The notes beneath the pieces were generated by a model, which was not told the origin of the DNA, made no database searches, and saw only the letters and a program-made list of their open reading frames with translations. The position numbers were made by a program, and so were the translations under genes. From Futiania mangrovi (lineage in GTDB: Bacteria; Pseudomonadota; Alphaproteobacteria; Futianiales; Futianiaceae), in contig NZ_JAMZFT010000002.1 of the NCBI RefSeq assembly GCF_024158125.1, forward strand, positions 992,001 to 1,056,000: a stretch of DNA of 64,000 bases, in the 5' to 3' direction. Within the stretch, counting starts at the first letter, position 1. The number at the start of each line of letters is the position of its first letter. Shown here piece after piece: positions 27,201 to 46,842 of the stretch.

Positions 27201-27806
27201 TCAGTAGATCGGCGGCGTGTAGACCCAGTGGACGCGGGTCACGGTCTTGCCGGGATTGCCGTAGCGGTGCGGCGTGGAGGCGCGGTAGCGGAAGGCGTCG
27301 CCCTCGAACAGGTGGAAGCGTTTCTCGCCGAGCCACAGGTCGAGCTGGCCGGCCATCACGACGCCTGCCTCCTCGCCGTCGTGGGTGTCGAGTTCGGGAC
27401 CGGAATAGGCGCCCGGTTCGATCTCCGTCAGGAACATCTGCAGGTCGCCACGGGTCCGCGGCGTCGTGATCTGCATGGTGATGCCGGCGCGCCGAAGGTC
27501 GAGAAGACGCCGGTTCGCGGGCCTGACGATGAACTGTGCTTCCTCGTCGACCGAGACGTCCGGTTGCACGTCCGTGAAGAACGACTCCACCGGCACGCCG
27601 ATCGCATCGGCAAGCAGGCGCAGCGACCGGATCGACGGCGAGGTGAGCCCGCGCTCGATCTGGCTGATGAGGCCGACCGACAAGCCGGCCTTCGTTGCGA
27701 CGACGTGCATCGACAGCCCGCGATCCTTGCGGGCCTGACGCATCAAGGCCCCCAGGATCTGATCCGGGTTCGACGTGGCTTCCTGACGTTCTTCCTGCGC
27801 TGTCAT
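27201..27806 (-). CDS. XRE-family regulator with C-terminal cupin (module 1, left)
   Basis: 201-aa regulator of the PuuR-like type: helix-turn-helix at about 18-71 (LMRQARKDRGLSMHVVATKAGLSVGLISQIERGLTSPS has the DNA-reading helix) and a cupin sensor at about 120-195 (GEEAGVVMAGQLDLWLG, YRASTPHRYGNPGK). Divergent from hyuA across 176 bases, the expected layout for a local regulator of the HyuAB cluster. A paralogous regulator closes the other end of the cluster at 42315. Confidence 0.9.
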   Translation of the reverse strand: MTAQEERQEATSNPDQILGALMRQARKDRGLSMHVVATKAGLSVGLISQIERGLTSPSIRSLRLLADAIGVPVESFFTDVQPDVSVDEEAQFIVRPANRRLLDLRRAGITMQITTPRTRGDLQMFLTEIEPGAYSGPELDTHDGEEAGVVMAGQLDLWLGEKRFHLFEGDAFRYRASTPHRYGNPGKTVTRVHWVYTPPIY

Positions 27807-27982
27807 CGGGAGGGGGGTGATCCTCTATCGGTTTGTGCGCAGGGATAATCCACGCCTTCAGACCGATCAATCGATGAACCGGTTTCACCAAACTTGAACC
27901 CATCCCAAAAATTTTTCAATATTCTGAAATGCGGGGGCGAGCTGCAAAGGCCGCCGGCGGGCTTTTCAGGGAGGGATGTGCA
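27807..27982. promoter_or_regulatory. divergent promoter region XRE-cupin / hyuA
   Basis: 176-base gap with an AT-rich patch (27898-27926). Dyads seen: AACCGGTT at 27877-27884 (perfect 8-bp palindrome) and TTTCA-N6-TGAAA at about 27914-27929. Either could be the operator of the adjacent XRE-cupin regulator. A GGGAGGG ribosome site (about 27970-27976) sits 7 bases before a TTG codon and decides the hyuA start. Confidence 0.4.
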
Positions 27983-30004
27983 TTGCGTGTCGGTGTGGAA
28001 GTCGGCGGAACGTTTACGGATCTTGTGGCAATTGAGCCGGGTGGCGTCCGTGTCACCAAGGTGCCGAGCGTCCCCCGGAACCCGGATGTCGGCGCCTTCA
28101 ATGCCTTGGAGGCGGCACGCCTCGATTTCAGCCAGATTGAAGATTTGGCCCACGGATCGACCGTGGCGACCAATGCTGTTCTCGAACGGCGGGGCGGCCG
28201 GATCGCCTTCGTCACCACGCGCGGCTTCCGGGACATCCTGGCGATCCAGCGGCACAACCGGACGCGAATCTACGACCTGGAGTACCAGAAACCGAGGCCT
28301 GTGGTTGCCCGAAGCGACAGCTTCGAGGTGGACGAGCGCATCGCCTCGGACGGCAGCGTCGTGACCGCTCTCGACCGCGCCGCGGTGGTCGGCGACCTCG
28401 TGCCCCGGCTCAAGGCGGGCGAGTACGACGCCATCGCGATCTGCCTGCTGAACGCCTATGCCAATCCCGCACACGAAGCGGCCCTGGCGCAGATTCTCGC
28501 CGAGGAGATAGACGGTGTCCTCGTGGCCCTCTCCTCGGAGGTCAGCCGGGAGTTCCGCGAGTTCGAGCGGGCCTCCACGACAACGCTCAGCGCCTATGTG
28601 CAGCCGGTGATCGACCGCTATCTTCAGTCCTTCGAAAGGAGGCTCCAGGATGCAGGCTTCCGGGGGCGCTTCAGCGTCATGCAGTCGAACGGCGGACGGC
28701 TCCCCGCAGGCGGCATGCGGCGCAGGGCCGTGTCCGCGCTGCTGTCCGGACCGGCGGCGGGCGTGACCGGCGCGGGGCGGCAGGCGGCGCGGTCGGGCTT
28801 CGACAACCTCATCACCCTCGACATCGGCGGCACCAGCACGGACGTCTGTCTCGTCACCGACGGCAAACCCGAACTGACGAGCGAGTTTCACATCGAAGGG
28901 TTGCCGGTGCGCTCGCCTGTGCTCGACATCAACACCGTGGGCGCGGGCGGCGGCAGCATCGTCTGGATCGACGACGGCGGCATGTTGCGCGCGGGCCCGC
29001 AGAGTGCGGGCGCCGATCCCGGGCCGGCCTGTTATGGCCGCGGGGGCACGCTGCCGACCCTGACCGACGCGCACCTGATCCGCGGCACGATCCGGGCGGA
29101 AGCCTTTCTCGGCGGGCGCATGCGTGTCGACGAGGAGGCCGCGCGCGCGGCCTTCGCCCCCATCGCCGAGGCGCTGGACATGAGCGTCGAGGAGGCCGCG
29201 GAGAGCGCGATCCGGCTCGCCGATTCCAACATCGTCCGGGCGATCCAGCTGATCTCGACGGAGCGCGGCAAGGATCCCCGCGACTATGTGCTGGTGCCGT
29301 TCGGCGGCGCCGGGCCGCTGCACGCGGCGCACGTGGCCGAAGACCTCGGCATCCGCACCATCGTCGTGCCGCCCAATGCGGGCGTGATCTCGGCCTATGG
29401 CCTCGTGGCGTCGGACTTCGTGGAGTACGACACCCGGACCTGCCGGATGCGCCTCGACCCGGATGCCCCCGACGCGCTGCGGGCGATCTACGAGGACATG
29501 CGCGGACACGGCGAGGCGGCGTTCCGTGAGATGGGCCTGAAGCCGCCTTACCGGCTGAGTTTCGTGGCCGACATGCGCTTCGTCGGCCAGGCGTTCGAGA
29601 TCCCGGTCGAACTGCCGGTGGGCGATCTCGACACGCTGACCTATGAGGAGGTGCGGCGCGCCTTCACCGAGGCGCATCATCGCATCTTCTTCCACGGCGC
29701 GGGCGACACCAAGCCGGTCGAGATCGTCGCGGCGCGCGTCGGGATCACCGCGCCGCTCGGCGAATTGCCGCTTCTGACGGAAGACCCGCACACCGGCGGC
29801 AACGACGCCGCCCCGATCCGCATCCACGACGGCAAGCAGGAGCAGGAGGCCCAGGCGATGCCCAGGTCGCTGCTGAACGACCGCCGGAGCGTGACGGGAC
29901 CGGCACTTGTGGACGATCCCACCTCGACGATCTTCGTGCCCGCGGGCTGGGCGGCGTCGGCGGACGAGGCGGGCAACTTGATACTGCGGAGGGAAGAGCG
30001 GTGA
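27983..30004 (+). CDS. hyuA: HyuA/5-oxoprolinase-type ATP-dependent hydrolase, subunit A (module 1)
   Basis: 673-aa ATP-binding subunit of the hydantoinase/oxoprolinase superfamily, enzymes that couple ATP hydrolysis to opening of cyclic amides (5-oxoproline, N-methylhydantoin, caprolactam) or to carboxylations. Actin-like ATPase motifs: VGVEVGGTFTDLVA at the N-terminus, AHGSTVATNAVLERRGGR, TLDIGGTSTDVCLV near 270 and the second-domain FGGAGPLHAAHVAEDLG near 430. Start TTG 27983 is preferred (GGGAGGG site 7 bases upstream); an ATG at 27929 would add 18 unrelated residues. First gene of a four-gene run with hyuB, a nitrilase-like hydrolase and RidA. Confidence 0.9.
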   Translation: MRVGVEVGGTFTDLVAIEPGGVRVTKVPSVPRNPDVGAFNALEAARLDFSQIEDLAHGSTVATNAVLERRGGRIAFVTTRGFRDILAIQRHNRTRIYDLEYQKPRPVVARSDSFEVDERIASDGSVVTALDRAAVVGDLVPRLKAGEYDAIAICLLNAYANPAHEAALAQILAEEIDGVLVALSSEVSREFREFERASTTTLSAYVQPVIDRYLQSFERRLQDAGFRGRFSVMQSNGGRLPAGGMRRRAVSALLSGPAAGVTGAGRQAARSGFDNLITLDIGGTSTDVCLVTDGKPELTSEFHIEGLPVRSPVLDINTVGAGGGSIVWIDDGGMLRAGPQSAGADPGPACYGRGGTLPTLTDAHLIRGTIRAEAFLGGRMRVDEEAARAAFAPIAEALDMSVEEAAESAIRLADSNIVRAIQLISTERGKDPRDYVLVPFGGAGPLHAAHVAEDLGIRTIVVPPNAGVISAYGLVASDFVEYDTRTCRMRLDPDAPDALRAIYEDMRGHGEAAFREMGLKPPYRLSFVADMRFVGQAFEIPVELPVGDLDTLTYEEVRRAFTEAHHRIFFHGAGDTKPVEIVAARVGITAPLGELPLLTEDPHTGGNDAAPIRIHDGKQEQEAQAMPRSLLNDRRSVTGPALVDDPTSTIFVPAGWAASADEAGNLILRREER

Positions 30005-31713
30005 CCAAGAGCGAAACCATGGCCGCGGGCACCAGGGACATGACCGGCGGTCTGGATCCGGTCGACTATGCCGTGATCACCCAAGGGCTGATCGCCGCGG
30101 CGCGCGAGATGGGCGCGAAGCTTATCCGGTCTGCCTACTCGACCATCGTGCGGGAGGCGAGCGACGCGTCCGCCGCGCTGCTCGACCGCAACGGCAACGT
30201 GATCGCGCAGGCCGAACTGATCCCGATGCAGCTCGGACCGATGCGTGCGACCTTCCAGGCGTGCGCGGACGTGGTGCCCGTGGACGACCTTCAGCCGGGC
30301 GACTTCTACATCAACAACGACCCGTTCGCGGGCGGCCAGCACCTGCAGGACGTGTTCATCTACACGCCGGTGTTCGTGGATGGCCACGTCGTCGCCTTCG
30401 CGGGGACGGTGGCGCATCACCTCGACCTCGGCGGCGGAAATCCGGGCCTCAACCCGGACGCGGCCGACGTGCATGCCGAGGGGCTGCTGTTTCCGCCCTC
30501 GCGCTACAATTTCGAAAGGGACTGGGACGGCGGGCCGCTCGAGCGGTTCGTGGCCCGCAACATCCGCGTGCCCGAGCAGACGATCGGCGACTTCAACGCG
30601 CAGTTCGCGGCCAACGCCATCGGCGCGCACCGGGTCGGCGAGATGTGCCGCAAGTACGGCACGGACAAGGTGCTGGCGAGCATGGACGCGCTCATGGACT
30701 ATACCGAGCGGCGGTTCCGCGCGGCGCTCCGCGACGTGCCGGACGGCGTCTATTATGGCGAGGACGCGGTGGACGACGACGGGCTCACCGACGACCACCT
30801 CGTCGTCAAGGCGTCGGTCGAGGTGCGCGGCGACACCATCGCGATCGACTTCGAGGGGACGTGCGAGCAGGTGCGGCGCAACCTCAACTGCCCGCTGTCC
30901 TCCACGATCTCGGCGGCGCTGTCGGCGGTGAAGGCGGTGCTGACGAGCGCCGACATCCCGTTCAACGAGGGCCTGAAGCGTCCGGTCACGATCAAGGTGC
31001 CGGAAGGCAGCATCCTCAACCCGACCTACCCGGCGCCCGTGCGTGCGCGGATGGAGGCGGCCTACCGTGCCTTCAATGCGGTGATGAAGGCGCTGGCCCA
31101 GATCGTCCCCGACCGCGTGATCGCCGGCGGACACGACACGACGACCGTGCTCGCCATCAGCCATCTGAGCACGGCGGGCTACCGGGTCTATCTCGAGGTG
31201 TTCGGCGGCGGCTACGGCGCCTCGCCGCGGACCGACGGCTGCGACGCGGTGGATTCGCCGCTTTCCAACTGCTCCAACACGCCGGTCGAGGCGACCGACA
31301 TGGAGTTCGACCATTTCCGCATCGTCGGCTACGGGCTGGTGCCGGATTCCGGCGGCCCGGGCAGGCGGCGCGGCGGCCTGTCCTTCTTCCGCAGCTACGA
31401 GATCCTGAAGGACAATGTGAACTTCGCGATCTACGCCGACCGGTTCCGCATCGCGCCCTACGGGCTCGAAGGCGGGCAGGAGGGCACGTGCGGGCGTTGC
31501 GAGATCCTGCGCGACGGCAAGGTGCTGCAGGTGCGTTCCAAGGACAATGTCGACCTGCGCCGCGGCGATGTCGTCACGCTCATCACGTCGGGCGGGGCAG
31601 GCTACGGCGATCCGGCGGAGCGCGAGGCCGAACTGATCGAACGCGACCTGCGCGAAGGCTATGTCACGGACCTGAAGCAATGGCAGGCGCTGGGCGCTCA
31701 AGCCGCGGAATAG
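30001..31713 (+). CDS. hyuB: HyuB-type hydrolase subunit B (module 1)
   Basis: 570-aa catalytic-side subunit of the HyuA/HyuB pair. Conserved features: AREMGAKLIRSAYSTIVREASDASAALLD, INNDPFAGGQHLQDVFI, the metal-site-like AHHLDLGGGNPG, and SGGAGYGDPAER near the C-terminus. GTG 30001 overlaps the hyuA stop (GTGA), the normal coupling of these subunits. It is clearly less similar to the two HyuB proteins at 46843 and 48573 than they are to each other, so it probably acts on a different compound. Confidence 0.9.
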   Translation: MTKSETMAAGTRDMTGGLDPVDYAVITQGLIAAAREMGAKLIRSAYSTIVREASDASAALLDRNGNVIAQAELIPMQLGPMRATFQACADVVPVDDLQPGDFYINNDPFAGGQHLQDVFIYTPVFVDGHVVAFAGTVAHHLDLGGGNPGLNPDAADVHAEGLLFPPSRYNFERDWDGGPLERFVARNIRVPEQTIGDFNAQFAANAIGAHRVGEMCRKYGTDKVLASMDALMDYTERRFRAALRDVPDGVYYGEDAVDDDGLTDDHLVVKASVEVRGDTIAIDFEGTCEQVRRNLNCPLSSTISAALSAVKAVLTSADIPFNEGLKRPVTIKVPEGSILNPTYPAPVRARMEAAYRAFNAVMKALAQIVPDRVIAGGHDTTTVLAISHLSTAGYRVYLEVFGGGYGASPRTDGCDAVDSPLSNCSNTPVEATDMEFDHFRIVGYGLVPDSGGPGRRRGGLSFFRSYEILKDNVNFAIYADRFRIAPYGLEGGQEGTCGRCEILRDGKVLQVRSKDNVDLRRGDVVTLITSGGAGYGDPAEREAELIERDLREGYVTDLKQWQALGAQAAE

Positions 31714-31749
31714 GCGGCACCGTCCCCGGCCGCCATGAAGGATAAAGAC

Positions 31750-32607
31750 ATGGAACAGACCCAGGACCTGACCGCCTCCGCCATCCAGATCACCAGCTGC
31801 GATGGCAAGAAGGCCGAGATCGTCGACAAGGTGGCCCGGCTCCTCGACGTGGCGGGGCAGCGGGGCTCCGACCTCGTCGTGCTGCCGGAGCTTTGGACCG
31901 GTCTCGGCTTTTCCGACGAGACGATCTACCGCGACATCGCCGAGCCGTTTCCGGGCCCGGTGACGGACATGCTTGCCGAAAAGGCGCGCCGCTACGGCAT
32001 GTACATCGCGGGCTCCATGTACGAGGACGCGGGCGAAGGCACCTATTACAACACCATCCCGCTGGTCACGCCGGACGGGGAGATCCAGGGCCTCTACCGC
32101 AAGACGCACCTGTTCGACGCGCCCAACCGCACCGACATCCCGCCCGGCATCCGCGAAAGCGCCAAGGTGAAGGCGGGCGACGACCTGCCCGTCTTCGACA
32201 CGGGGCTCGGCTGCCTCGGCCTGTCGGTCTGCTCCGACCTGCGCTTTCCGGAGATCTACCGGGAGATGACGCTGCGCGGGGCGGAGATCCTGGTGTGCGC
32301 ATCGGCGTTCCTGTCGCCGCGCATCGACCATTGGGAGTTCTTCCTGCGTGCGCGCGCCTGCGAGAACCAGGCGTTCGTGGTCGCCTCCGGCCAGGTCGGC
32401 AAGGATCCCTCCTCCGGCCTCGCCTTCGTCGGGCGCAGCATGATCGTCGACCCCTGGGGGGTGATCGTGGCCACGGCATCGGACGAGGAGGAGTGCATCA
32501 CCGCGCACATCGACCCCGGCCTGATCGGGCGCGTGCGCGAACGCTACCCGCTGCTGGAGCAGCGCCGTCCCGAGCTCTACCGGGTGCTGAGGACGGGCAA
32601 CCGATGA
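31750..32607 (+). CDS. carbon-nitrogen hydrolase (nitrilase superfamily)
   Basis: 285-aa amidase-type hydrolase with the Glu-Lys-Cys triad intact: E47 (VVLPELWTG), K118 (LYRKTHLFD) and C161 (LSVCSDLRFPE). The superfamily splits amides or N-carbamoyl groups in the cytosol. ATG 31750 has an AAGGA site 8 bases upstream and is preferred to ATG 31735. Position after HyuAB suggests it removes ammonia (and CO2 if N-carbamoyl) from the ring-opened product; omega-amidase and N-carbamoyl-amino-acid hydrolase are the nearest functional classes. Confidence 0.88.
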   Translation: MEQTQDLTASAIQITSCDGKKAEIVDKVARLLDVAGQRGSDLVVLPELWTGLGFSDETIYRDIAEPFPGPVTDMLAEKARRYGMYIAGSMYEDAGEGTYYNTIPLVTPDGEIQGLYRKTHLFDAPNRTDIPPGIRESAKVKAGDDLPVFDTGLGCLGLSVCSDLRFPEIYREMTLRGAEILVCASAFLSPRIDHWEFFLRARACENQAFVVASGQVGKDPSSGLAFVGRSMIVDPWGVIVATASDEEECITAHIDPGLIGRVRERYPLLEQRRPELYRVLRTGNR

Positions 32608-32996
32608 GCAACCGGCGCCTCAACCCGGAGACGGTCGCACCGCCGAACGGGCTCTACAGCCACGCGGTCGAAGTGCCCGCGGGCGCCCGCCTCGTCTTCG
32701 TGTCGGGCCAGCTCGGCGTCGACGCGCAAGGCAACCTCGCGCCCGACATCGAAGGGCAGTGCGACCTCGCCTGGCAGAACATGAAGGCGGTGCTGGAAGC
32801 GGCGGGCATGGGCCTCGACGACCTCGTGAAGGTCAACACCTATATCGTGGACGAGGCGCATGGCGACATCGTGCGCGCGGTGCGCAGGCGCTATCTCCCG
32901 GGCGAGCAGCCGGCCTCGACGGCGGTCGCGGTGCGGGCGATGGTCCGCCCCGAATGGCTGATCGAGATCGAGGGCATCGCGGCGCGCGTCGACTGA
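32604..32996 (+). CDS. RidA family protein (enamine/imine deaminase)
   Basis: 130-aa protein of the YjgF/YER057c/UK114 family, which hydrolyses reactive enamines and imines released by amino-acid enzymes. Family stretches VSGQLGVDAQGNL, QCDLAWQNMKAVLEAAGMGLDDLVKVNTYI and a C-terminal MVRPEWLIEIEGIA with the conserved arginine before WLIEIE. ATG 32604 overlaps the hydrolase stop by 4 bases. Its presence suggests that an imine intermediate forms in the pathway, for example from a flavoprotein amine oxidase such as those at 40890 or 43370. Confidence 0.9.
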   Translation: MSNRRLNPETVAPPNGLYSHAVEVPAGARLVFVSGQLGVDAQGNLAPDIEGQCDLAWQNMKAVLEAAGMGLDDLVKVNTYIVDEAHGDIVRAVRRRYLPGEQPASTAVAVRAMVRPEWLIEIEGIAARVD

Positions 32997-32999
32997 GGC

Positions 33000-34397
33000 T
33001 CAGGCGTCCTCACACACGCAGGGCGGCAAGGGCATCGGCAGGACCGCTTCCAGCGCTTCGGCCACGTCGAGCGCGAGGCCGTCGCGGAACGGCGGCGCGA
33101 CGATCTGGAGCCCCACGGGCAACCCCTCGGCCGTGAGGCCGCACGGCAGGCTCGCCGCCGGGTGGCGCGTCAGGTTGAAGGGGTAGGAGAAGGGCGTCCA
33201 CGCGGGCCAGCCCCGGGGGTCCGGGTCGCCTGGCTGGTCGCGCCCCACCTCGAAGGCGGCAATCGGCATCGCCGGCAGCGTCAGCACGTCGAAGCGCGCG
33301 AACAGGGCCTGAAGCCGGTCTGCAAGCACGGCGCACCCGGCAAGCGCCGCGGCGAAGCGCCCGGCGTCGACGGTGCGTCCCCGCTCCGCGATGGCGAGCA
33401 GGCTCGGCTCCATCGTCTCGGCCTGCGGGCCTGCTGCCTGCACGAGGGCGAGCGCGGTGCCGGACCAGATCGTTTCGAACATGTCCGCGGCCTCGCGCAT
33501 GTCGAGCGCGAGGGGCGTGACCTCCGCACCGAGCCCCTCGAGCGCGCGGACGGCGGCGTCGACGCACGCTTCAACCTCGGCGCTCACTGGGGCGTCGCCC
33601 AGCGTGCGCAGGTGGCCGACGCGCAGGCCATTCGCCGCGGACCGTCGGTCCATGTCGGCGATCCGTACGGGAGGGGCGGCCCAGTCGCGCGGGTCGTGCC
33701 GCGTGATGACGTCCATCATCGCCCGGGCGTCCGCGACCGTGCGGGTCAGCGGCCCCTGGACGGCGAGGTGGCCGAAGGCGCTCGCCGGGTGCATGGGCAC
33801 GCGGTAGGCGGTCGGCTTCAGGCCGAAGACGCCCGTGAACGCCGCCGGAATCCGGATCGAGCCGCCCGCGTCGGTGCCGAGATGCAGCACGCCCATGCCC
33901 GTCGCTGCCGCGACCGCCGCACCGCCGGAGGAGCCGCCGGGCGTCTTCGCCGGATCCCAGGGATTGCGCGTGATGCCGCACAGCGTGCTCTCGGTCACCG
34001 CCTTGTGGCCGTACTCCGGCGTCGTGGTCTTGCCGAGGATGACCGCGCCCGCTTCCCGCAGGCGTGCGACGGCGGGGGCGTCGGCAATCCCGTCAGCGCT
34101 CGCCGGCGTTGCGCGGGAGCCGCGGCGGAACGGAAAGCCCGCCATGGAGACGAGATCCTTGACGGTCGCGGGCACGCCGTCGAGGGGGGACAGCGGCGCG
34201 CCCTTGCGCCAGCGCGCCTCGGACGCGCGCGCGGCGGCCAGTGCGCCGTCCGCATCCACAATGCAGAAGGCATTCAGCGCGGGGTCGTGCCGCTCTATGC
34301 GTGCAAGGCAGGCGGCCGCGACGTCCACCGGGGAGAGGCGGCCGGAGCGGAACCCCTCGGCGCACTCCGCCGCGGTCAGCAGCGCCAGGTCGCTCAT
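33000..34397 (-). CDS. amidase (amidase signature family)
   Basis: 465-aa hydrolase of the Ser-cisSer-Lys type. Catalytic K80 (PATVKDLVS), the glycine-serine loop TPGGSSGGAAVAAATG with the cis-serine at 156/157 and nucleophile S180 (GTDAGGSIRIPA) are present. Start ATG 34397 lies in a 4-base overlap with the upstream PhyH gene; the frame continues open above it. It converges on ridA, ending 3 bases from it. It probably splits an amide of the pathway compound or an amide of the dioxygenase product. Confidence 0.92.
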   Translation of the reverse strand: MSDLALLTAAECAEGFRSGRLSPVDVAAACLARIERHDPALNAFCIVDADGALAAARASEARWRKGAPLSPLDGVPATVKDLVSMAGFPFRRGSRATPASADGIADAPAVARLREAGAVILGKTTTPEYGHKAVTESTLCGITRNPWDPAKTPGGSSGGAAVAAATGMGVLHLGTDAGGSIRIPAAFTGVFGLKPTAYRVPMHPASAFGHLAVQGPLTRTVADARAMMDVITRHDPRDWAAPPVRIADMDRRSAANGLRVGHLRTLGDAPVSAEVEACVDAAVRALEGLGAEVTPLALDMREAADMFETIWSGTALALVQAAGPQAETMEPSLLAIAERGRTVDAGRFAAALAGCAVLADRLQALFARFDVLTLPAMPIAAFEVGRDQPGDPDPRGWPAWTPFSYPFNLTRHPAASLPCGLTAEGLPVGLQIVAPPFRDGLALDVAEALEAVLPMPLPPCVCEDA

Positions 34398-35209
34398 TGC
34401 CCGGCGGCGAGGACCTGCGGAAACAGGTCGCACGGCATCGGGTCGCCCGCCTTCAGGCCCGGGTCGCGCAGCAGCCGGATGGTCGAGGCGCGCGGCGTGT
34501 AGACGGCGTCGTCGCCGGTCCAGCGCGTGGCGAAACCCCGGCGGCGGCGGTCGCTCGTCGAATTTCCCGCCGAATGATGCAGCGTCAAGGCGTGGTGCAC
34601 GATGCAGTCGCCGGGCGCCAGGTCCCAGGAGATGAAGTCGTACCGGTCGCGCTCGGCCTCGATGTCGGGGACGGGCTCCATGTCCGGATTGTCGTAGCTC
34701 GACTCCGAGGTGAAGCTCTGCCCGATGTAGCGCTTGGGCCACTTGTGCGAGCCGCGGATGTATTCCACGCCGCCCGACTCCGCCGACACGGGATCGAGCG
34801 CCAGCCAGATCGAGCAGACCTGGTTGCCCTCGACCGGCCAGTAGGGCAGGTCGTGATGCCAGGGCGTGTGCTCCTTCGTGCCGGCTTCCTTCACGAGCAG
34901 ATGGTCGTAGAACAGCGTCGCGGTCGACGACCGCATCAGTTGCCGCGCGATGGCGGCGGCCGGTGATTCAAACACGAAGGCTCGGAAATCCTCGTCGCGC
35001 GGCCAGATGAACTGATCGCCGAAAAACCGCCCGGCGCTCGTGTCCTTTGTGTATTCGAGCGCGAGCGGCCCGCCATTCGCCATGATGCGGTCGGCCGCTG
35101 CCTGCATGCGCGCGACCCAGTCGGCGCCGAACGCCTGGCGCAGGACGATGGCGCCATCCTCCTCGTACCGCGCGATCTCCGCGTCACCGATGGGCTGAGT
35201 GGTCGGCAT
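34394..35209 (-). CDS. phytanoyl-CoA dioxygenase (PhyH) family protein
   Basis: 271-aa Fe(II)/2-oxoglutarate-dependent dioxygenase-fold protein. The iron triad is visible as H118/H119-D120 (TPWHHDLPYW) with the distal histidine near H211 (LTLHHSAGN), and an arginine for 2-oxoglutarate in the RRRRGFATRW stretch near 221-230. Such enzymes hydroxylate small carboxylic acids or amides. It leads a two-gene minus-strand operon with the amidase and is divergent from the OYE gene, so hydroxylation followed by amide cleavage is a reasonable guess. Confidence 0.88.
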   Translation of the reverse strand: MPTTQPIGDAEIARYEEDGAIVLRQAFGADWVARMQAAADRIMANGGPLALEYTKDTSAGRFFGDQFIWPRDEDFRAFVFESPAAAIARQLMRSSTATLFYDHLLVKEAGTKEHTPWHHDLPYWPVEGNQVCSIWLALDPVSAESGGVEYIRGSHKWPKRYIGQSFTSESSYDNPDMEPVPDIEAERDRYDFISWDLAPGDCIVHHALTLHHSAGNSTSDRRRRGFATRWTGDDAVYTPRASTIRLLRDPGLKAGDPMPCDLFPQVLAAGQ

Positions 35210-35467
35210 CCCCGTTGACCCTCTCTCTTCCCGGCCTTGGCGGCCAGCCTGATTTTTTCAATGATGCTTGAATTGGGGCGGGTATGGCAACTGGTTTGAG
35301 AATCGACGGCCAAAGGGCATTTCGAAAAAACCAAAAATAAACAATCACTTGAATGACATTACGGGATATAAAAATTTAATGACGCTAAAAAATTGGATTG
35401 ATCGTCATGTGCCGGAGGGGCACACTCTGGACAGGTGGAATTCCGGGGCAGTGAGAGGAAGCGGGGC
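35210..35467. promoter_or_regulatory. AT-rich divergent promoter region PhyH / OYE
   Basis: 258-base gap, much more AT-rich than the genes, between the dioxygenase and OYE genes. It holds TTCAA-N6-TTGAA (35257-35272) and a spaced inverted pair ATGACG (35379-35384)/CGTCAT (35403-35408). CTTGAATTG (35267-35275) recurs at 43329-43337 ahead of the DAO-fold gene. Probable promoters in both directions; regulator unknown, one of the XRE-cupin proteins likely. Confidence 0.4.
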
Positions 35468-36655
35468 ATGGTCGAAGCGGCAGAGGCGTCGCAGGTGAGG
35501 TTGTTCCAGGCCTTCGCCCACCGAGGCGTCACATTGCCCAATCGCATCGTCATCTCGCCGATGCAGCAATATGCTGCCGACCCTGACGGCATGGTCAAGG
35601 ACTGGCACTTCGTCCACCTGACCAAGATGGCCGTGGGCGGCGCGGGGCTCATCTTCACCGAGGCGCTGGCGGTCGAGCCGGCCGGGCGGCTGACCCACGC
35701 GGACCTCGGCGTCTGGTCGGACGGCCACATTCCGGGTCTTGCGCGCCTGGCGGAGGCCATGCGGGAGCACGGCTCGGTGCCGGGCGCGCAACTCATCCAC
35801 GCAGGCCGCAAGGCGAGCATGAGCCGGCCTTGGCACGGCTATCTGCCGCTGACGGAAGAGGATGAGAAGGCGCGCGGCGAGGCGCCTTGGCAGACGATCT
35901 CCTCGACGGCGACACCGGCGAACCCGGGCTGGCACGTTCCGGTGGCGCTCGACCGGGCGGGCATCGGCCGGGTGCTCGACCTGTTTGCGCAGGCCACGCG
36001 GCGTGTGCGCGAGGCTGGCTTCGACGTCCTCGATATCCACGGGGCGCACGGTTACCTGATCCATTGCTTTCTTTCTCCGCTCGCAAACGAACGGACCGAC
36101 GACTATGGCGGCAGCCTGGAGAACAGGATGCGCTTCGCGGTCGAGGTGGCGGACGCGGTGCGCAGCGAATGGCCGTCGGACAAGCCGCTTTATTACCGGC
36201 TCTCGTGCGTGGACGGGATCGAGGGCGGCTGGTCCATCGAGGACTCCGTGGCGCTGTCGCGTGTCCTCGCCGGGCACGGGGTCGATGTGATCGATTGCTC
36301 GTCGGGCGGACTGACCCAGCGCGCGACGCCGGCGATCATTCCGCGGGAACCGGGCTTCCAGGTCCCCTACGCCGACAGGATCCGCCACGACGCGCACATT
36401 CCCACGATGGCGGTTGGCCTCATCACCGAGCCGCGGCATGCAGAGCAGATTCTTCGGGAGGGAAAGGCAGACCTGATTGCGATCGGCCGGGAGTCCCTGA
36501 ACAATCCCCAATGGGCGCTTCATGCTGCGCAGGAACTGGGCGCCGACCCCGGGTTCGAGAAGTGGGCCCCGCAATACGGCTGGTGGCTTTATCGCAGGGA
36601 ACGCGCGCGCCAGGCCGCCGAGGAGGCCAGCGCGGGCAAGGGTGCGGGCGTCTGA
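35468..36655 (+). CDS. old yellow enzyme-type NADH:flavin oxidoreductase (module 1)
   Basis: 395-aa FMN TIM-barrel reductase of the YqjM class. Substrate/flavin-site histidines H191 and H194 (DIHGAHGYLIH), and Y35 after the motif SPMQQY. YqjM-class enzymes normally have cysteine at the place of Q33 (SPMCMY), which tunes the flavin; here it is glutamine. Start ATG 35468 (MVEAAEASQV) follows an AGGAAG site. It heads the transcript OYE-dctPQM-Gfo/Idh; two stem-loops (36666-36687 and 36702-36716) separate it from dctP. It would reduce an activated C=C or, as in related family members, oxidise an amine. Confidence 0.9.
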   Translation: MVEAAEASQVRLFQAFAHRGVTLPNRIVISPMQQYAADPDGMVKDWHFVHLTKMAVGGAGLIFTEALAVEPAGRLTHADLGVWSDGHIPGLARLAEAMREHGSVPGAQLIHAGRKASMSRPWHGYLPLTEEDEKARGEAPWQTISSTATPANPGWHVPVALDRAGIGRVLDLFAQATRRVREAGFDVLDIHGAHGYLIHCFLSPLANERTDDYGGSLENRMRFAVEVADAVRSEWPSDKPLYYRLSCVDGIEGGWSIEDSVALSRVLAGHGVDVIDCSSGGLTQRATPAIIPREPGFQVPYADRIRHDAHIPTMAVGLITEPRHAEQILREGKADLIAIGRESLNNPQWALHAAQELGADPGFEKWAPQYGWWLYRRERARQAAEEASAGKGAGV

Positions 36656-36665
36656 GCCCGCCATC

Positions 36666-36716
36666 GTCCGGGAGCGGAGGCCCGGACAGGCATCCGGTAC
36701 TCGCCGTGCTTCGGCG
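36666..36716 (+). other. two tandem stem-loops before dctP (module 1)
   Basis: GTCCGGG (36666-36672) pairs with CCCGGAC (36681-36687), and CGCCG (36702-36706) with CGGCG (36712-36716). They lie between the OYE stop and the dctP start and may process or attenuate the transcript so that the binding protein is made at a different level. Confidence 0.5.
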
Positions 36717-36765
36717 GGTCCGCAACAAGAAGACGACGGATGCAACGAGAATGGGAGACGGCAAG

Positions 36766-37899
36766 ATGAAAACCAGAGGTCTGAGCATGGCGCTCGGAGG
36801 GTCATTGCTCGCGGCTATCGCGGCAAGCCCTGCGCAGTCGGAAGAATACGCAGCAAACATCTTCTTCGGCCCTGAGCTGACGCTCACCAAGTACGCCTAT
36901 ACGGAGTTTGCCAAACGGGTCGCAGACGCGACGAACGGGGCGGTAAGCTTCAAGGTCTACACGGGTGGCGTGCTCATCCCGCCGCGTGCGTCGATGGAAG
37001 GAATCGCCGATGGCATTGCGCAGGTCGGCTATCACGCGGGCACCTATACGCCCGACAAGATTCCGCGGCACAATCTGATTTCCGAGCTTTCGTTCGTTTC
37101 CACGGACTATTTCGTCACGGCGCTCGCCTCGACCGAAATCAGCTTCGTGATGCCGGAGCTGGAGGCAGAGTGGAAGGCCAACGGCGTCGTCTACGGCGGC
37201 GGTTATTCGACGCTTCCCTACGTGCTCCAGTGCAACACGAAGCTCGAAACGCTCGCCGACGTGAAGGGCAAGCGGCTGCGGATGCCGGGCGCGATCTGGG
37301 ACCGCTGGGCGACCGCCATGGGTGCGGTCTCCGTCAATGTGCCGTCGAGCGAGATCTACACCGGCCTCGACCGCGGCACGATCGACTGCGGCGTCAACCC
37401 GGCCGAGGGCCTCAAGAGCCGCAGCTTCTGGGACGTCGCCAATCACGTCCTCGACCTGCCTCTGGGGGTTTATTACTCGGGCTTCCACTGGGCCTACAAC
37501 CCGGACTTCTGGGGCTCGCTGTCGGTCGAGCAGCGCAAGACTCTCTATGAGCAGATGGCGTGGGCGATCGCCAAGACGGGCGTGGAGTACACGCGCGAGA
37601 CCGAGGCCGTGATCGCGCAGGCGAAGGCCGAGAAGGGCGTGACGTTCGTTCAGCCGGCGCCGGACCTTCTCGCCGCCCACGCCGCCTTCGTCGAGCAGGA
37701 CAGCAAGGCGCTCGTCGAACTGGCCAAGACCAAGTACGGCATCGATGATGCCCAGAAGTACATCGACAAGTACATGGAACTGGTCGCCAAGTGGGAAGGC
37801 CTGCTGAAGAACGTCGACAAGACGGACGTGGACGCCATCAAGGCGCTGGTCATGTCCGAGATCTACGACAAGGTCGACCCGGCCACCTACGGCCTCTGA
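36766..37899 (+). CDS. dctP: TRAP transporter substrate-binding protein DctP (module 1)
   Basis: 377-aa periplasmic binding protein. Signal peptide 1-25 (MKTRGLSMALGGSLLAAIAA, cleaved near QSEE); the DctP pattern includes KVYTGGVLIPPRASMEGIADGIAQVGY, the K-R-M-P stretch GKRLRMPGAIWDRW with the arginine that usually binds the ligand carboxylate, and VNVPSSEIYTGLDRGTIDCGVNPAE. ATG 36766 has a GGGAG site upstream. With DctQM it imports an organic acid using a sodium gradient. Confidence 0.92.
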   Translation: MKTRGLSMALGGSLLAAIAASPAQSEEYAANIFFGPELTLTKYAYTEFAKRVADATNGAVSFKVYTGGVLIPPRASMEGIADGIAQVGYHAGTYTPDKIPRHNLISELSFVSTDYFVTALASTEISFVMPELEAEWKANGVVYGGGYSTLPYVLQCNTKLETLADVKGKRLRMPGAIWDRWATAMGAVSVNVPSSEIYTGLDRGTIDCGVNPAEGLKSRSFWDVANHVLDLPLGVYYSGFHWAYNPDFWGSLSVEQRKTLYEQMAWAIAKTGVEYTRETEAVIAQAKAEKGVTFVQPAPDLLAAHAAFVEQDSKALVELAKTKYGIDDAQKYIDKYMELVAKWEGLLKNVDKTDVDAIKALVMSEIYDKVDPATYGL

Positions 37900-37917
37900 C
37901 GGCCGCGCGATCGAGGC

Positions 37918-37950
37918 GGGCTGGCCCCGGCATCCGTGCCGGGCCAGCCC
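37918..37950 (+). other. intercistronic stem-loop after dctP (module 1)
   Basis: A 14-bp stem with one bulged C (37918-37932 against 37937-37950) around a TCCG loop. It is followed by ATATTGTTTCCC, only a weak T-run. Same position relative to the binding-protein gene as the stem-loops after urtA and the second dctP. Confidence 0.7.
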
Positions 37951-37991
37951 GGATCGATATTGTTTCCCTTCGTCAAGGCCGGAGAAGCTGA

Positions 37992-38576
37992 TTGACGATG
38001 ACGACGTCCCAGAAGGCCCTGCCGCGCCCTTTCCGGGCAGCAACCCGCCTTGTCCGGCGCGCCACGGATCTTTCGATGGTTTTCGCGGGCATCGCGCTGG
38101 TGCTGATGACGGTGCATGTGGTTGCCGATGTCACCGCGCGTGTCGTCTTCAACAGTCCGATTCCGGGCACGCTTGAGATCGTGGCCTTCTACTACATGGT
38201 TGCAGCCATCGTCTTCCCGGCGGGCTACCTGGAAAGGCGCGACGAGCACATCACCGTCGAGCTGTTCTACATGCGCCTGTCTCCCTTCGGGCAGCGGATC
38301 TGCTACGCATTTTCCGGCCTCCTGACGGCAGTGTTCTTTTCGATTTTCGCCTACCAGAGCTGGCTCGACGCGCTCAAGGCCACCAGGACGCGCGAAATGG
38401 TCATGGGCGCGGCCCAGATCGAGATCTGGCCGGCCCGGTATGTTCTGCCGATCAGCTTCGCCCTGCTCGTTCTCGTTGCGGTTCTGAATGTGGTCCGGGT
38501 GGTGCTGCGGCCCCACGAAACCCCCACCAACAAGGACACGACAGCTGATGTCGGCGAGGAGAGGACGGCCGGATGA
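37992..38576 (+). CDS. dctQ: TRAP transporter small permease DctQ (module 1)
   Basis: 194-aa four-helix membrane protein. Helices at about 27-50, 60-83, 100-123 and 150-172, with family stretch AIVFPAGYLERRDEHITVELFY. A TTG at 37992 has a GGAG site 7 bases before it; ATG 37998 gives a protein two residues shorter, and its spacing of 13 is poor, so the TTG is preferred. Its ending overlaps dctM by 4 bases. Confidence 0.87.
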   Translation: MTMTTSQKALPRPFRAATRLVRRATDLSMVFAGIALVLMTVHVVADVTARVVFNSPIPGTLEIVAFYYMVAAIVFPAGYLERRDEHITVELFYMRLSPFGQRICYAFSGLLTAVFFSIFAYQSWLDALKATRTREMVMGAAQIEIWPARYVLPISFALLVLVAVLNVVRVVLRPHETPTNKDTTADVGEERTAG

Positions 38577-39877
38577 GTAATGTCGAGATCGGCTTCGCCG
38601 GGCTGGCGGTGCTGCTCCTGTTGCTGGCCGTCAGGGTTCCGATCGCCGTCGCCCTCGGCTCGGTATCCTTTGTCGGGATCGCGATGCTGACCTCGTGGCG
38701 CGCCGCGTGGGGCGTTCTCTCTGCCGTACCCTTCAATTTCCTAGGGGACTGGTCGCTTTCGGCCATTCCCATGTTCCTTCTGATGGGCTTCGTTGCCTCG
38801 CGTGCGGGCCTGACGGACGGCCTCTACAAGGCGATGCGCGTGGTCTTCGGCCCGGTGCCGGGCGGGCTCGCCGTTTCGAGTGTCGGGGCTTGCGCGCTCT
38901 TTGCCGCAGCATCGGGGTCGAGCGTGGCCACCTCTGCGGCCATGGCGCGGATCGCGGTTCCGGAAATGTTGCGCTACCGCTACGATCCGGGCCTTGCATG
39001 CGGCGTGATTGCCAGTGCCGGAACGTTGGGCTCGCTCATCCCGCCGTCGATCCTTCTCGTGATCTACGGCATTTTCGCACAGGCCTCGATCGGGGAGCTT
39101 TTCATGGCCGGGTTTCTTCCCGGCCTGCTCTCGGCATTGATGTTCGCCGGGATGATCGTGGTCCGGGTCAAGCTCCGCCCCTCGCTCGCCCCTCCTCTGG
39201 ACGAGCGGCCGTCGCGCGAGGAGATGTTCGCGGCCCTTAGCGAGTTGTGGATGCTTCCGGTCCTGGTTCTGGGTGTGCTGGGCGGGATCTTCGTCGGGCT
39301 CTTCACGCCGACCGAAGCCGGCGCGGTCGGCGCAGTCCTTGCGGTGCTGCTGGCGATGATCCGGGGCACGGCGAGCTGGGAGGGTCTGCGTCAGGCCATC
39401 GTCGAGACGGCGATCAGTTCGACGGCCATCTTCGTGATCGCGATCGGTGCCGTGCTCTTCATGCGCTTCATGGCCTTCAGCGGCGTTCCGGATCATCTCT
39501 CCGCGGCGATGCTGTCGGTGACGGACAGCCAGATCCTGATCCTGCTGCAGGTTGCGCTGGTCTATCTCCTGCTTGGCATGTTCATCGATTCCATCGGCAT
39601 CATGCTGCTGACGCTGCCGATCATGCTGCCTCTGGTCGGTGGCGCCGACATCGATCTCGTCTGGTTCGGCATCATCGTGATCAAGCTGCTTGAGATCGGC
39701 CTGGTGACCCCGCCGGTCGGTCTGAACGTCTATGTCATCAAGAGCGCGCTCGGCAGCGAGGTGAGCCTGACCGCGATCTTCCGGGGCGTGATGTGGTTCA
39801 TCGTCGCCGATCTCATCACGCTGGGCCTCCTGATCCTGTTCCCGCAGATCTCGCTCTACCTGCCCAGTCTCATGTGA
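38573..39877 (+). CDS. dctM: TRAP transporter large permease DctM (module 1)
   Basis: 434-aa transport subunit with about 11-12 helices. Family stretches AIPMFLLMGFVASRAGL, SSVATSAAMARIAVPEMLRYRYDP, GTLGSLIPPSILLVIYGI and the terminal TPPVGLNVYVIKS are all visible. With DctP and DctQ it forms a complete TRAP importer for an unknown carboxylate. ATG 38573 lies in the ATGA overlap with dctQ. Confidence 0.93.
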   Translation: MSNVEIGFAGLAVLLLLLAVRVPIAVALGSVSFVGIAMLTSWRAAWGVLSAVPFNFLGDWSLSAIPMFLLMGFVASRAGLTDGLYKAMRVVFGPVPGGLAVSSVGACALFAAASGSSVATSAAMARIAVPEMLRYRYDPGLACGVIASAGTLGSLIPPSILLVIYGIFAQASIGELFMAGFLPGLLSALMFAGMIVVRVKLRPSLAPPLDERPSREEMFAALSELWMLPVLVLGVLGGIFVGLFTPTEAGAVGAVLAVLLAMIRGTASWEGLRQAIVETAISSTAIFVIAIGAVLFMRFMAFSGVPDHLSAAMLSVTDSQILILLQVALVYLLLGMFIDSIGIMLLTLPIMLPLVGGADIDLVWFGIIVIKLLEIGLVTPPVGLNVYVIKSALGSEVSLTAIFRGVMWFIVADLITLGLLILFPQISLYLPSLM

Positions 39878-39884
39878 GGACGCC

Positions 39885-40883
39885 ATGACCGATCAGAGTT
39901 CGAAGCCGGTGCGCCTTCTGATCGCCGGCCTCGGCCGATGGGGGCAGACGATGGTCCGCTCCGTGCAGGGCGTGAGCGCGGATGTCTGCTTCGCCGGTGC
40001 CATCGTCCGCCGGAAGGAACCGGTCCTCGATTTCGCGCAGAGCACGGGCATGGCCCTGTTCGGCAGCCTTCGCGACGCGGTGGAGGAGACAGGCGCGGAC
40101 GGCCTCGTCCTTGCCACCCCGCACAGCCAGCACGAAGGGCAGGCGCTTGAGGGCCTGGAGGCAGGTCTGCCGGTGCTCGTCGAAAAGCCCTTCACCCTGA
40201 CGCGGGAAAGCGCGGTGCGTGTCGTCGAGGCCGCGAAAGCCCGCGGGCTGCTCGTCACCGTCGGCTTCAACCGCCGCTTCGCCCCCGCCATGCAGAAGCT
40301 CCGCACGCTGGTCAGGTCCGGAGAACTGGGAACGGTGCAGGCCGTGGAGGGCAATTTCTCCGGCAGTTTCGCCTACCGCTATCGCCCGGGGATGTGGCGC
40401 GTGTCCGCGGAGGAAGCGCCCGCCGGCGGCATGACGCCGATGGGCGTTCACGTGCTCGACGCGATGATCGACCTTGCAGGGCCGATAGAGGCGGTCGAGA
40501 CGCGGTCGATCCGCCGTGTGGTCGAGATCGATCAGGATGACACCACCATGGTCTCGGTGCGGTTTTCCTCCGGCGCCCTCGGCGTGTTGACGACGCTCAC
40601 GACGACGGCCCCCATATGGCGCGTCCAGGTCTCCGGGTCGCGCGGCTGGGCCGTGGCGGAGGGACACGAGCGGCTGGTCCACGCCCCCATCGATGGCCCC
40701 GTCACGGAGACACGCTTTCCCCCGACGGATATCGAACGCGCGGAACTCGAGGCCTTTGCCGCCGCCGTCCGGGGGACGGCCGTTTTTCCCGTCAGGCCAG
40801 ACGAGGCTGTCGAGGGTGTCGCCACCCTGGAGGCCGTGGTGACCTCCGCGCGCTCGGGCGGATGGGTGAAGGTGCGCCGCTGA
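39885..40883 (+). CDS. Gfo/Idh/MocA-family oxidoreductase
   Basis: 332-aa NAD(P)-dependent dehydrogenase. Rossmann motif LIAGLGRWG at 12-20 and the family E100-K101-P102 (VLVEKPF), then the C-terminal alpha/beta substrate domain with GGMTPMGVHVLDAMIDL. Starts 7 bases after dctM, so it belongs to the OYE-TRAP transcript. It may oxidise a hydroxyl or reduce an imine in the pathway; substrate unknown. Confidence 0.9.
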   Translation: MTDQSSKPVRLLIAGLGRWGQTMVRSVQGVSADVCFAGAIVRRKEPVLDFAQSTGMALFGSLRDAVEETGADGLVLATPHSQHEGQALEGLEAGLPVLVEKPFTLTRESAVRVVEAAKARGLLVTVGFNRRFAPAMQKLRTLVRSGELGTVQAVEGNFSGSFAYRYRPGMWRVSAEEAPAGGMTPMGVHVLDAMIDLAGPIEAVETRSIRRVVEIDQDDTTMVSVRFSSGALGVLTTLTTTAPIWRVQVSGSRGWAVAEGHERLVHAPIDGPVTETRFPPTDIERAELEAFAAAVRGTAVFPVRPDEAVEGVATLEAVVTSARSGGWVKVRR

Positions 40884-40889
40884 CGGCGC

Positions 40890-42188
40890 TCACAGGCCCA
40901 GCCGGTCCTTTGCCTGGTACCACGCCGCCGTGAGTTTCATTCCGGGGATCCGGAGGGCGTGGAACGGCACCGGCGGAAACGCGGCGGTGACCGGGCCCAG
41001 GTCGCAGGCCTCCCCGACCGCCAGCCGCGCGAGATAGCGGCCCATCAGCGTCGACATGGCAACGCCGCGCCCGCCGTATCCCATCGCGAAGTGGATGCGC
41101 GGCGAGAGGCTGCCGAGGTGATGCCAGTGGTCTCGCGTCACCGCGACCAACCCCGACCAGCGGTGCGTCACCGGGACGTCCGCCAGGTCGGGATAAAGGG
41201 CATGAAGCGCGTCCTCGATCCCCTTGTAGCTGGCTGCGTCCGCGCGCCGTCCCGTGATGTCTCCGCGCCCGCCGAAGACGATCCGGTTGTCGGGCGACAG
41301 CCGGACCCAGTTCAGCAGGTGCTTGGTGTCCGACATCGTCCGGCCGCGCGGCAGGATGCGGCCCGCAAGGTTTCGGGGCAGGGGGGCTGTCGCGATGGCC
41401 GACGACGACACGGCGACGACCCTCTGCGCAAGGCCGTCCGGAAAGAGACCGGGCGGCGTGTAGCCGTTTGTCGCGATGACGAGCTGGTCCGCGGTCACCG
41501 TGGCGCGCGGCGTGTCTATGGCGATGCCGCCCTCGATGGCGCGAACCCGGGTCGCGGGCGTGCTGCCGTGGATCGGGACACCGCGCGCCGCCAGCGAGGA
41601 TGCAAGGCCGCGGGCGTACGCGAGCGGTTGCACGCGCGCCCCCAGCGGGTCGAGATACCCGCCGCAATACGCCCCGCCGCCCAGCTCCTCCGAGATTTCG
41701 GCCCGGGACAACAGCTGGACCTCCGTCTCGCCCGCGGCCTGGTGCAGCCAGCGCACCTCGGCGGCCAGCGCATCGAGCGCCTTTGGCGTATGCGCGGCGG
41801 CCAGATAGCCGTCCTGCGCGAAATCGCAGTCGATCCCGTGATCTGCAACCAGTTCGCAGACCGTCTCGATCGCCTCGTGCAGCAGCCGCCTCTGTCTCAG
41901 CGCCTCGTCGCGGCCCCAGTGCGCCTCGATGGCCGTCAGCGGCTTCTTCGGGCGCGGCACGAGCATCCCGCCGTTGCGCCCGCTGGCGCCCCATCCGGGC
42001 TGGTGCGCCTCGATCACCATGCAGTCGACGCCGCGCGCAGCGAGGTGGTGGGCCGCCGAGAGGCCGGTGTAGCCGGCCCCGACGATCAGAACACCGGTTC
42101 GCGCGTCGGATGCAAGCTCGGGAAACGGCTGCGGCTCGGGTGCCGTTTCGCACCATGCGCTCCTGCTTTCCTGGTTGTCCGCGGCCAT
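40890..42188 (-). CDS. DAO-fold FAD-dependent oxidoreductase (PuuB-like, module 1)
   Basis: 432-aa flavoprotein of the amino-acid/amine oxidase type. The FAD motif VLIVGAGYTGLSAAHHLAARG lies near 33-53 and WGASGRNGGMLVP near 66-78. It resembles gamma-glutamylputrescine oxidase and sarcosine-oxidase-like proteins, so oxidation of a secondary or primary amine to an imine is likely, matching the RidA upstream in the cluster. It converges with the Gfo/Idh gene and is followed upstream by an XRE-cupin regulator in the same direction. A close paralogue lies at 43370. Confidence 0.88.
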   Translation of the reverse strand: MAADNQESRSAWCETAPEPQPFPELASDARTGVLIVGAGYTGLSAAHHLAARGVDCMVIEAHQPGWGASGRNGGMLVPRPKKPLTAIEAHWGRDEALRQRRLLHEAIETVCELVADHGIDCDFAQDGYLAAAHTPKALDALAAEVRWLHQAAGETEVQLLSRAEISEELGGGAYCGGYLDPLGARVQPLAYARGLASSLAARGVPIHGSTPATRVRAIEGGIAIDTPRATVTADQLVIATNGYTPPGLFPDGLAQRVVAVSSSAIATAPLPRNLAGRILPRGRTMSDTKHLLNWVRLSPDNRIVFGGRGDITGRRADAASYKGIEDALHALYPDLADVPVTHRWSGLVAVTRDHWHHLGSLSPRIHFAMGYGGRGVAMSTLMGRYLARLAVGEACDLGPVTAAFPPVPFHALRIPGMKLTAAWYQAKDRLGL

Positions 42189-42314
42189 GGAACTTGTCTT
42201 CCGTGTCGAGGGCGCCTGGCGGGGGAGACCCGCCGTCAGCCGGCAGTCTGGGCGAACCCGTTTTTTTAGTCACGCTGAAAATTGTCTGCTCCGGTGCCGG
42301 TTTCTGCCCGCCTC

Positions 42315-42941
42315 TCAGTAGAACGGCGGGGTCGTCACCCAGACAACGGAGCATGGCACATCCGCGGGATTGCGGAATCCGTGCGGCAGCTTGCTCGGGA
42401 AGCGAAAGCTGTCGCCGGCTTTCAGGTCATAGACGTCCTTGTCGATGGTCAGGATCAGCTCACCGCTCAGCACGTGACCGCACTCCTCGCCCTCGTGCTG
42501 GTACAACTCCTCGCCGGATGAGCCGCCGGGTTCGACCTGGACCAGGACCATCTGGAGCTTTCCCCCGAGGTCCGGCGTCAGGAGTTCCTTGCGGATACCC
42601 TTCTTTTCGAGCCGAAGTGTCTTGCGGACGTTTGGCCGCACGATCCGGCCTCTCTCCTCGTGCGGAACGTCGTCCGGTTCGCTGAACACCCAGCTTATGG
42701 GAATGCGCAGCGCCGTGCACAGCATCTGGAGCGAGTTGAGCGATGGCGTGCTGAGGCCGCGTTCGACCTGGCTGATGAAGGCGACGGAGAGGCCGCTTTC
42801 GTCCGCGACCTTTTGCAGCGAAAGGCGGCGCTGCCTCCGGATCGTTCGCAATTGCTGCCCGACCGACCGGCTTTCGTCGGGCCGGCCTGCCTGCTGCTTC
42901 ACCATCTTTGGGGGCGGACCAGCCTTCCGTGGAATGGGCAT
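42315..42941 (-). CDS. XRE-family regulator with C-terminal cupin (module 1/2 boundary)
   Basis: 208-aa regulator: helix-turn-helix about 32-86 (VGQQLRTIRRQRRLSLQKVADESGLSVAFISQVERGLSTPS) and a cupin at about 135-205 (GEECGHVLSGELILTI, FPSKLPHGFRNPAD). Start chosen at ATG 42941; ATGs at 42905 and 42971 are alternatives and none has a strong ribosome site. It lies 126 bases upstream of the DAO-fold gene 40890 in the same direction and is divergent from the DAO-fold gene 43370, so it is placed to control both modules. Confidence 0.88.
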   Translation of the reverse strand: MPIPRKAGPPPKMVKQQAGRPDESRSVGQQLRTIRRQRRLSLQKVADESGLSVAFISQVERGLSTPSLNSLQMLCTALRIPISWVFSEPDDVPHEERGRIVRPNVRKTLRLEKKGIRKELLTPDLGGKLQMVLVQVEPGGSSGEELYQHEGEECGHVLSGELILTIDKDVYDLKAGDSFRFPSKLPHGFRNPADVPCSVVWVTTPPFY

Positions 42942-44725: not shown

Positions 44726-44773
44726 TCCGGGAATTTTCAAACGCCTTCAAGATCGCGAGGACAGACGAGAGCG

Positions 44774-46840: not shown

Positions 46841-46842
46841 CC

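Follow-up and report, generated by a model that had tools for sequence, protein, structure and literature searches.

The described systems closest to the locus considered here are those in which an ATP-dependent enzyme of the HyuA/HyuB family opens a ring amide. As far as the available parts of the published descriptions go, the nmpABCDEF cluster for N-methylpyrrolidone (NMP) of Alicycliphilus sp. BQ1 and Paracoccus sp. ZQW-1 encodes HyuA, HyuB and an FAD amino-acid oxidase together, and ring opening of the ATP-dependent type is followed by amine oxidation (PMC12866759, PMC6987047; compared by description). The caprolactamase CapAB of Pseudomonas jessenii belongs to the same enzyme family and carries its ATP and metal motifs (PMC8453981). 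In this study we focused on a stretch of 64,000 nucleotides from Futiania mangrovi (contig NZ_JAMZFT010000002.1, positions 992,001 to 1,056,000), referred to here as the window, in which HyuA and HyuB genes lie in one island with genes for Old Yellow Enzymes (OYEs), TRAP importers, FAD oxidases of the DAO family and XRE-cupin regulators. The island is made up of two paralogous catabolic modules, module 1 at 27.2-42.2 kb and module 2 at 43.3-57.3 kb, with the regulator XRE2 in between. Module 1 is a genuine and partly conserved orphan catabolic module, and with slightly less than even confidence we suggest that it is one copy of a recurring module under an XRE-cupin regulator which reduces a ring amide and then opens it with ATP.

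Conservation of the gene set across genomes proved informative in separating its core from its local additions. An OYE1-alignment scan over 84,980 species gave 80 loci (designated below by L numbers), of which the 27 closest to OYE1 were compared with 53 control OYE loci; retrieval was by sequence pattern, locus lengths are alike in the two groups and the Fisher p-values ignore phylogeny. HyuA and HyuB are found near the OYE in 15 of the 27 OYE1-relative loci and in one of the 53 controls (p=3.5e-8), and DAO, XRE and DctP genes, present in 10, 10 and 8 of the 27 respectively, are found in no control. A sequence-only reading of the window had taken everything between its two XRE-cupin regulators as a single candidate pathway whose genes would co-occur in other genomes, and this holds above chance for OYE, HyuA, HyuB, DAO, XRE and TRAP. 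It does not hold for PhyH, Gfo/Idh and RidA, which at the search threshold are in none of the 27 loci, and it is not significant for the nitrilase (2/27 against 0/53, p=0.11) or for the amidase (3/27 against 1/53), all three amidase loci being without HyuAB. The core consists of an XRE-cupin regulator, an OYE, HyuA and HyuB, after which comes either a PuuB-like FAD oxidase or a hydrolase of the nitrilase fold, and it often includes a TRAP importer. It occurs in Alpha-, Beta- and Gammaproteobacteria, with carriers that include Stella, Methylobacterium oryzihabitans, Paralcaligenes ureilyticus, Variovorax JS1663 and several metagenome-assembled genomes (MAGs), one of which is labelled gammaproteobacterial and is the sole representative of that class. 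Seven syntenic loci (L090-L092, L094-L096 and L099) have the order OYE-DctP-(XRE)-DctM-HyuA-HyuB and then directly DAO or Nit, with Nit in this place in L095 and L099; in other loci, judged by eye, a branched-chain-type, peptide-type or polyamine-type ABC importer replaces TRAP and the OYE-HyuAB pair is retained. Among the 385 genomes of the class that were searched, some two dozen besides the host's carry HyuA1 relatives at 52-64% identity, and the neighbourhoods of three of these relatives also contain OYE1-, TRAP- and XRE-like genes. A plasmid search gave no relative of OYE1 or HyuA1 at 60% or more, nor any nmp reference sequence.

HyuA1 (27983-30004, forward strand; Pfam Hydantoinase_A/Hydant_A_N) and HyuB1 (30001-31713, forward strand; Pfam Hydantoinase_B, E=7e-161) are the ATP-binding and metal-site subunits of an ATP-dependent lactamase/hydantoinase. 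The phosphate-binding motifs GGTFTD and DIGGTSTD are intact in HyuA1, and the family motifs are present in all relatives compared. HyuB1 keeps the metal ligands Asp/His/Asp/His (DAS at 55, HLQD at 114-117, HH at 139-140) at a spacing equal to that of Asp41/His99/Asp102/His124 in CapB (PMC8453981). The ATP-dependent opening of a cyclic amide that had been read from the sequence is the chemistry of this family and, with the motifs of both subunits intact when set against CapAB (PMC8453981), would be expected of HyuA1/HyuB1. The HyuA1 tree does not separate relatives with an OYE from those without one, and OYE1/OYE2-type enzymes have distantly related HyuAB as neighbours in L108, L115 and L173, which suggests that the OYE-HyuAB pairing arose more than once. 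The number of HyuA copies, seven in the host genome, was considered as a peculiarity of that genome and rejected because relatives carry more, up to at least 16.

OYE1 (35435-36655, forward strand; Pfam Oxidored_FMN) is a class III OYE. It aligns over nearly its full length with class III OYEs in the PDB (E about 1e-105), and shares with YqjM, TsOYE and XenA the fold and the paired-His motif, HxAHGY. Unlike its PDB relatives, in which the sequence around Cys26 (YqjM numbering) is PMCQY, OYE1 has Gln at this position (PMQQY), as does OYE2 (PMQMY), and Gln stands here throughout their lineage. Most HyuAB-linked OYEs fall within this Gln lineage in the tree, and those outside it are second OYE copies of Stella and L117. 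In Stella the second, Cys-type OYE, at a distance of about 4-5 kb from the module, adjoins a short Rid protein (L094:4476-8045, L096:5230-6784), and in L094 a polysaccharide-deacetylase-fold protein is encoded nearby, a fold that occurs in some cyclic-imide hydrolases. Two Gln-lineage OYEs without HyuAB, in L097 and L125, lie near genes for a Rieske dioxygenase, an extradiol-like enzyme and an isochorismatase-fold hydrolase, neighbourhoods that by analogy may recall pyridine ring degradation.

In L090, L091, L092, L094 and L099 the OYE and the XRE gene are each preceded by one operator-like, imperfect inverted repeat of 23 bp (TGAAAT...AAATTTC), which came out of an expectation-maximisation search and is weak at the XRE site of L099. 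Its log-likelihood of 127, against 67 +- 3 in 30 shuffles, is inflated by the close kinship of three of these five loci. The top position weight matrix match in the 64 kb is at 27896-27918 (18.0 bits), in the intergenic region between hyuA1 and the divergent XRE1 (27201-27806, reverse strand; HTH_3 and Cupin_2 by Pfam), and the runner-up, at 55971 between OYE2 and the MFS gene, reaches 10.3 bits. By bit score XRE2 is nearer than XRE1 to the XREs of the syntenic loci. A 10-mer common to two window promoters, TCACTTGAAT, was discarded as being at chance level (29 of 100 shuffles).

In the route we propose, DctPQM1 would import an N-heterocyclic carboxylate, OYE1 would reduce a C=C bond conjugated to the ring carbonyl, and HyuA1/HyuB1 would use ATP to activate the amide of the ring, be it a lactam, an imide or a ureide, and would then hydrolyse it. 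Nit may then take off the remaining amide or carbamoyl group, and/or DAO1 may oxidise the freed amine, so that ammonia would be released along with an oxo acid or a dicarboxylic acid. Gfo/Idh, PhyH, Rid and the amidase are local additions, which may extend the range of substrates. We infer the order of steps, with reduction before ring opening, as well as the carboxylate nature of the ligand and the substrate class. The alternation of Nit and DAO directly after hyuB fits differing ring-opened products, since an imide or ureide would leave an amide and a lactam would leave an amine. Nit (31735-32607, forward strand; Pfam CN_hydrolase) is a nitrilase-superfamily amide hydrolase most like Nit2 (omega-amidase), with 2w1v as its best PDB match and the Glu-Lys-Cys motifs present. 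DAO1 (40890-42188, reverse strand; Pfam DAO) is a PuuB/AmaA-like FAD amine oxidase whose best NCBIfam model, L-pipecolate oxidase, is below its cut-off, and the DAO profile found no match in the PDB at 1e-40. The TRAP set is complete, comprising the solute-binding protein DctP1 (36766-37899; Pfam DctP) and the small and large membrane subunits DctQ1 (37992-38576; Pfam DctQ) and DctM1 (38573-39877; Pfam DctM), all on the forward strand, with DctP1 48-52% and DctM1 59-63% identical to their orthologues in syntenic loci. An Arg-Met-Pro motif is retained in DctP1 at the position of the arginine that commonly binds the carboxylate in TRAP proteins. Of the pyroglutamate-binding DctP6/DctP7 (2pfy/2pfz), 2pfy ranked fourth at only E=1e-10, and it is not among the 50 best fold matches listed. 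Fold matches to the AlphaFold model of DctP1 (mean pLDDT 72) are led by aromatic-acid solute-binding proteins at about 17-20% identity, a lead only; assigning a substrate from DctP1 was given up, its sequence and fold matches being too distant.

Several observations weigh against this reduction and ring-opening route. The nearest relatives of HyuA1 are often solitary in unrelated surroundings, so HyuA1/HyuB1 may be a generalist. At least 10 OYEs of the Gln lineage lack a neighbouring HyuAB, which means that the OYE reaction is not bound to it everywhere; the OYE could also dehydrogenate, or act on another compound. DAO1 is 34-38% identical to the module-linked DAOs of relatives, and DctP1 is without a close solved relative, phmmer and profile searches having given distant TRAP proteins only. 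The p-values above must also be read as uncorrected for phylogeny, since most control OYEs belong to taxa further removed and the loci of the clade were retrieved by pattern. It could be that there is no single pathway at all and that the window holds a generalist island of independent operons (HyuAB-Nit, amidase/PhyH, OYE-TRAP-Gfo and DAO), which we consider unlikely, if not strongly so. The absence of PhyH, Gfo and RidA from all 27 OYE1-relative loci, the confinement of the amidase to loci without HyuAB, the several transcription directions of the module 1 genes, and the frequency of HyuA-type genes in the class, with the copy numbers given above, would all suit such an island. It would be more difficult to reconcile with an OYE-HyuAB-DAO/Nit-XRE-TRAP core that stays together in several genera and classes, or with an operator-like repeat common to the OYE and XRE promoters in relatives.

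We give a low probability to catabolism of an N-methyl-lactam or N-methylhydantoin in the manner of nmpABC, in which HyuAB would yield an N-methylamino acid, DAO would demethylate or deaminate it, and the OYE would only adapt an unsaturated entry substrate. The contiguity of HyuA, HyuB and DAO in L090-L092, L094, L096 and L103, which is that of the nmp cluster, favours this explanation, while in the window it is Nit that comes after HyuB1, with DAO1 9 kb off. The closest PDB sequence to HyuA1 is likewise an N-methylhydantoinase (7hk5, 436 bits), and in the available parts of the sources nmpABC, encoding HyuA, HyuB and an amino-acid oxidase, is NMP-induced and deletion of nmpB abolishes NMP degradation (PMC6987047, PMC12866759). 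Against it, no dehydrogenase of the nmpF (succinate-semialdehyde) type is found among the module 1 proteins classified, and NMP has no carboxylate for the TRAP system. A 5-oxoproline/gamma-glutamyl salvage, with HyuAB acting as a 5-oxoprolinase and GGT, M20 and amidase neighbours processing gamma-glutamyl compounds, seems improbable. GGT does follow DAO in L090-L092 (Pfam-confirmed for L090), an M20 peptidase is present in L094 and L108, and the many genomes in which HyuA1 relatives stand alone are in keeping with a housekeeping role; yet OYE, DAO and 2-oxoglutarate dioxygenases would serve no purpose in 5-oxoproline hydrolysis, HyuA1 scores lower against 5-oxoprolinase (366 bits) than against the N-methylhydantoinase, and CapAB, a HyuAB relative, is inactive on 5-oxoproline (PMC6061476).

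The remaining genes of module 1 are a Rid-family protein (32604-32996, forward strand; Pfam Ribonuc_L-PSP), an amidase-signature hydrolase (33000-34397, reverse strand; Pfam Amidase, NCBIfam PRK06169 above cut-off), a PhyH-type Fe(II)/2-oxoglutarate dioxygenase (34394-35209, reverse strand; Pfam PhyH, HxD...H...R motif) and a Gfo/Idh/MocA-family oxidoreductase (39885-40883, forward strand; Pfam GFO_IDH_MocA), the last three accessory. All the families recognised in the sequence-only reading are thus present by Pfam, and its two XRE-cupin regulators are indeed paralogues, at 41% identity. The imine clean-up it assigned to RidA is unlikely: PARSCV of E. coli RidA aligns with PASTAV of the Rid protein, placing Ser at Arg105, and without this catalytic arginine imine hydrolysis is not expected. 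It had also put an EamA transporter between the regulators; the family is right (Pfam EamA, E=3.4e-32), but the gene (26286-27191, reverse strand) adjoins XRE1 on its far side, outside the bracket, and the EamA-XRE-HyuA order recurs in L103. The bracket formed by XRE1 and XRE2 (42315-43043, reverse strand; HTH_3 and Cupin_2 by Pfam) marks no boundary and finds no support as a unit, a second paralogous set continuing past XRE2 to 57322, and the gene set first singled out is a conserved core plus local genes, ending in mid-island. PhyH was rejected as a marker for the system, since homologues as much as 53% identical to it sit in unrelated neighbourhoods. 2-Oxoglutarate dioxygenases do recur in relatives, but they belong to a different family, TauD, in L094 and L095 (by Pfam), and L096 and L105 each have a protein related to these.

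Module 2 (43349-57322) lies on the forward strand except for OYE2. It begins with DAO2, a second PuuB/AmaA-like oxidase (43349-44725; Pfam DAO), followed by HyuA2 (44774-46840; Pfam) and the tandem duplicates HyuB2a (46843-48537; Pfam) and HyuB2b (48573-50261; Pfam). One HyuA2 with two HyuB copies, 60% identical, at 46843-50261 suggests alternative hydrolase subunits using a common ATPase subunit. DctP2 (50483-51508; Pfam DctP), a DctQ2-like protein (51527-52114), DctM2 (52161-53447), the DadA-like oxidase DAO3 (53460-54728; NCBIfam D-amino acid dehydrogenase, below cut-off), OYE2 (54764-56002, reverse strand), an OYE1 paralogue also by the tree, and an MFS transporter (56072-57322; NCBIfam MFS models, all below cut-off) complete it. 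Identities between the modules are 54% for OYE1/OYE2, 42% for DAO1/DAO2, 37% for HyuA1/HyuA2, 36% for DctM1/DctM2 and 25% for DctQ1/DctQ2. OYE1-type and OYE2-type modules, side by side in the window, are on separate contigs of one genome in L172 and L173. The module of L090 (CP051228.1) is nearly like those of Rhodospirillaceae MAGs, and the title of this record, a Mesoflavibacter MAG, is probably wrong. Directly upstream of the island, at 20293-26238, are genes for a urea-type ABC transporter ATPase and urease (ureB, C, E, F and G, by eye), possibly a nitrogen-scavenging context. The host genome (3.39 Mb, 99.85% complete) is the sole representative of its order among the genomes compared.

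Returning to the described systems, the available parts of those sources mention neither an OYE nor a TRAP importer, an XRE-cupin regulator or a nitrilase among the nmp enzymes. In full-text, open-licence papers no description was found of a HyuA/HyuB/oxidase set with an OYE, a TRAP importer and an XRE-cupin regulator, or of an XRE-cupin regulator with a nitrilase. The earlier view that the combination matches no pathway that can be named therefore stands in that no paper describing it was found, and needs qualifying in that its HyuA/HyuB/oxidase part resembles nmpABC. HyuA1/HyuB1 differ from CapAB in their partner genes, in having Glu, across the HyuA1 lineage, at the position of the catalytic Asp11 of CapA, and in lacking a counterpart of the Cys410-Cys411 vicinal disulfide in the CapAB substrate pocket, HyuB1 having no CC pair. 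Since this cysteine pair is missing and their scores against the CapAB NCBIfam equivalog (476/260 bits) are far below the cut-off of 1000, they are not caprolactamases.

HyuAB enzymes are abundant and few of their substrates are known, so that a recurring partnership with one OYE lineage is a testable clue to their roles; it also highlights a lineage of OYEs without the usual redox-tuning cysteine. The reductive pyrimidine pathway consists of a reductase, dihydropyrimidinase and beta-ureidopropionase. Module 1, read as a route of reduction followed by ATP-dependent ring opening, would resemble it by analogy only, in ring reduction, hydrolysis of the ring amide and hydrolysis of a ureide or amide by a nitrilase-fold enzyme, whereas the first two enzymes of that pathway come from families unrelated to OYE and HyuAB. 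It is possible, though on balance doubtful, that a route of reduction and then ATP-dependent opening is widespread for unsaturated N-heterocyclic acids, with Cys-to-Gln OYEs feeding HyuAB and the last step falling to an FAD oxidase or a nitrilase-fold hydrolase. Such a route would parallel reductive pyrimidine breakdown with unrelated enzymes, and might have come together repeatedly, each time from another HyuAB lineage and another importer.

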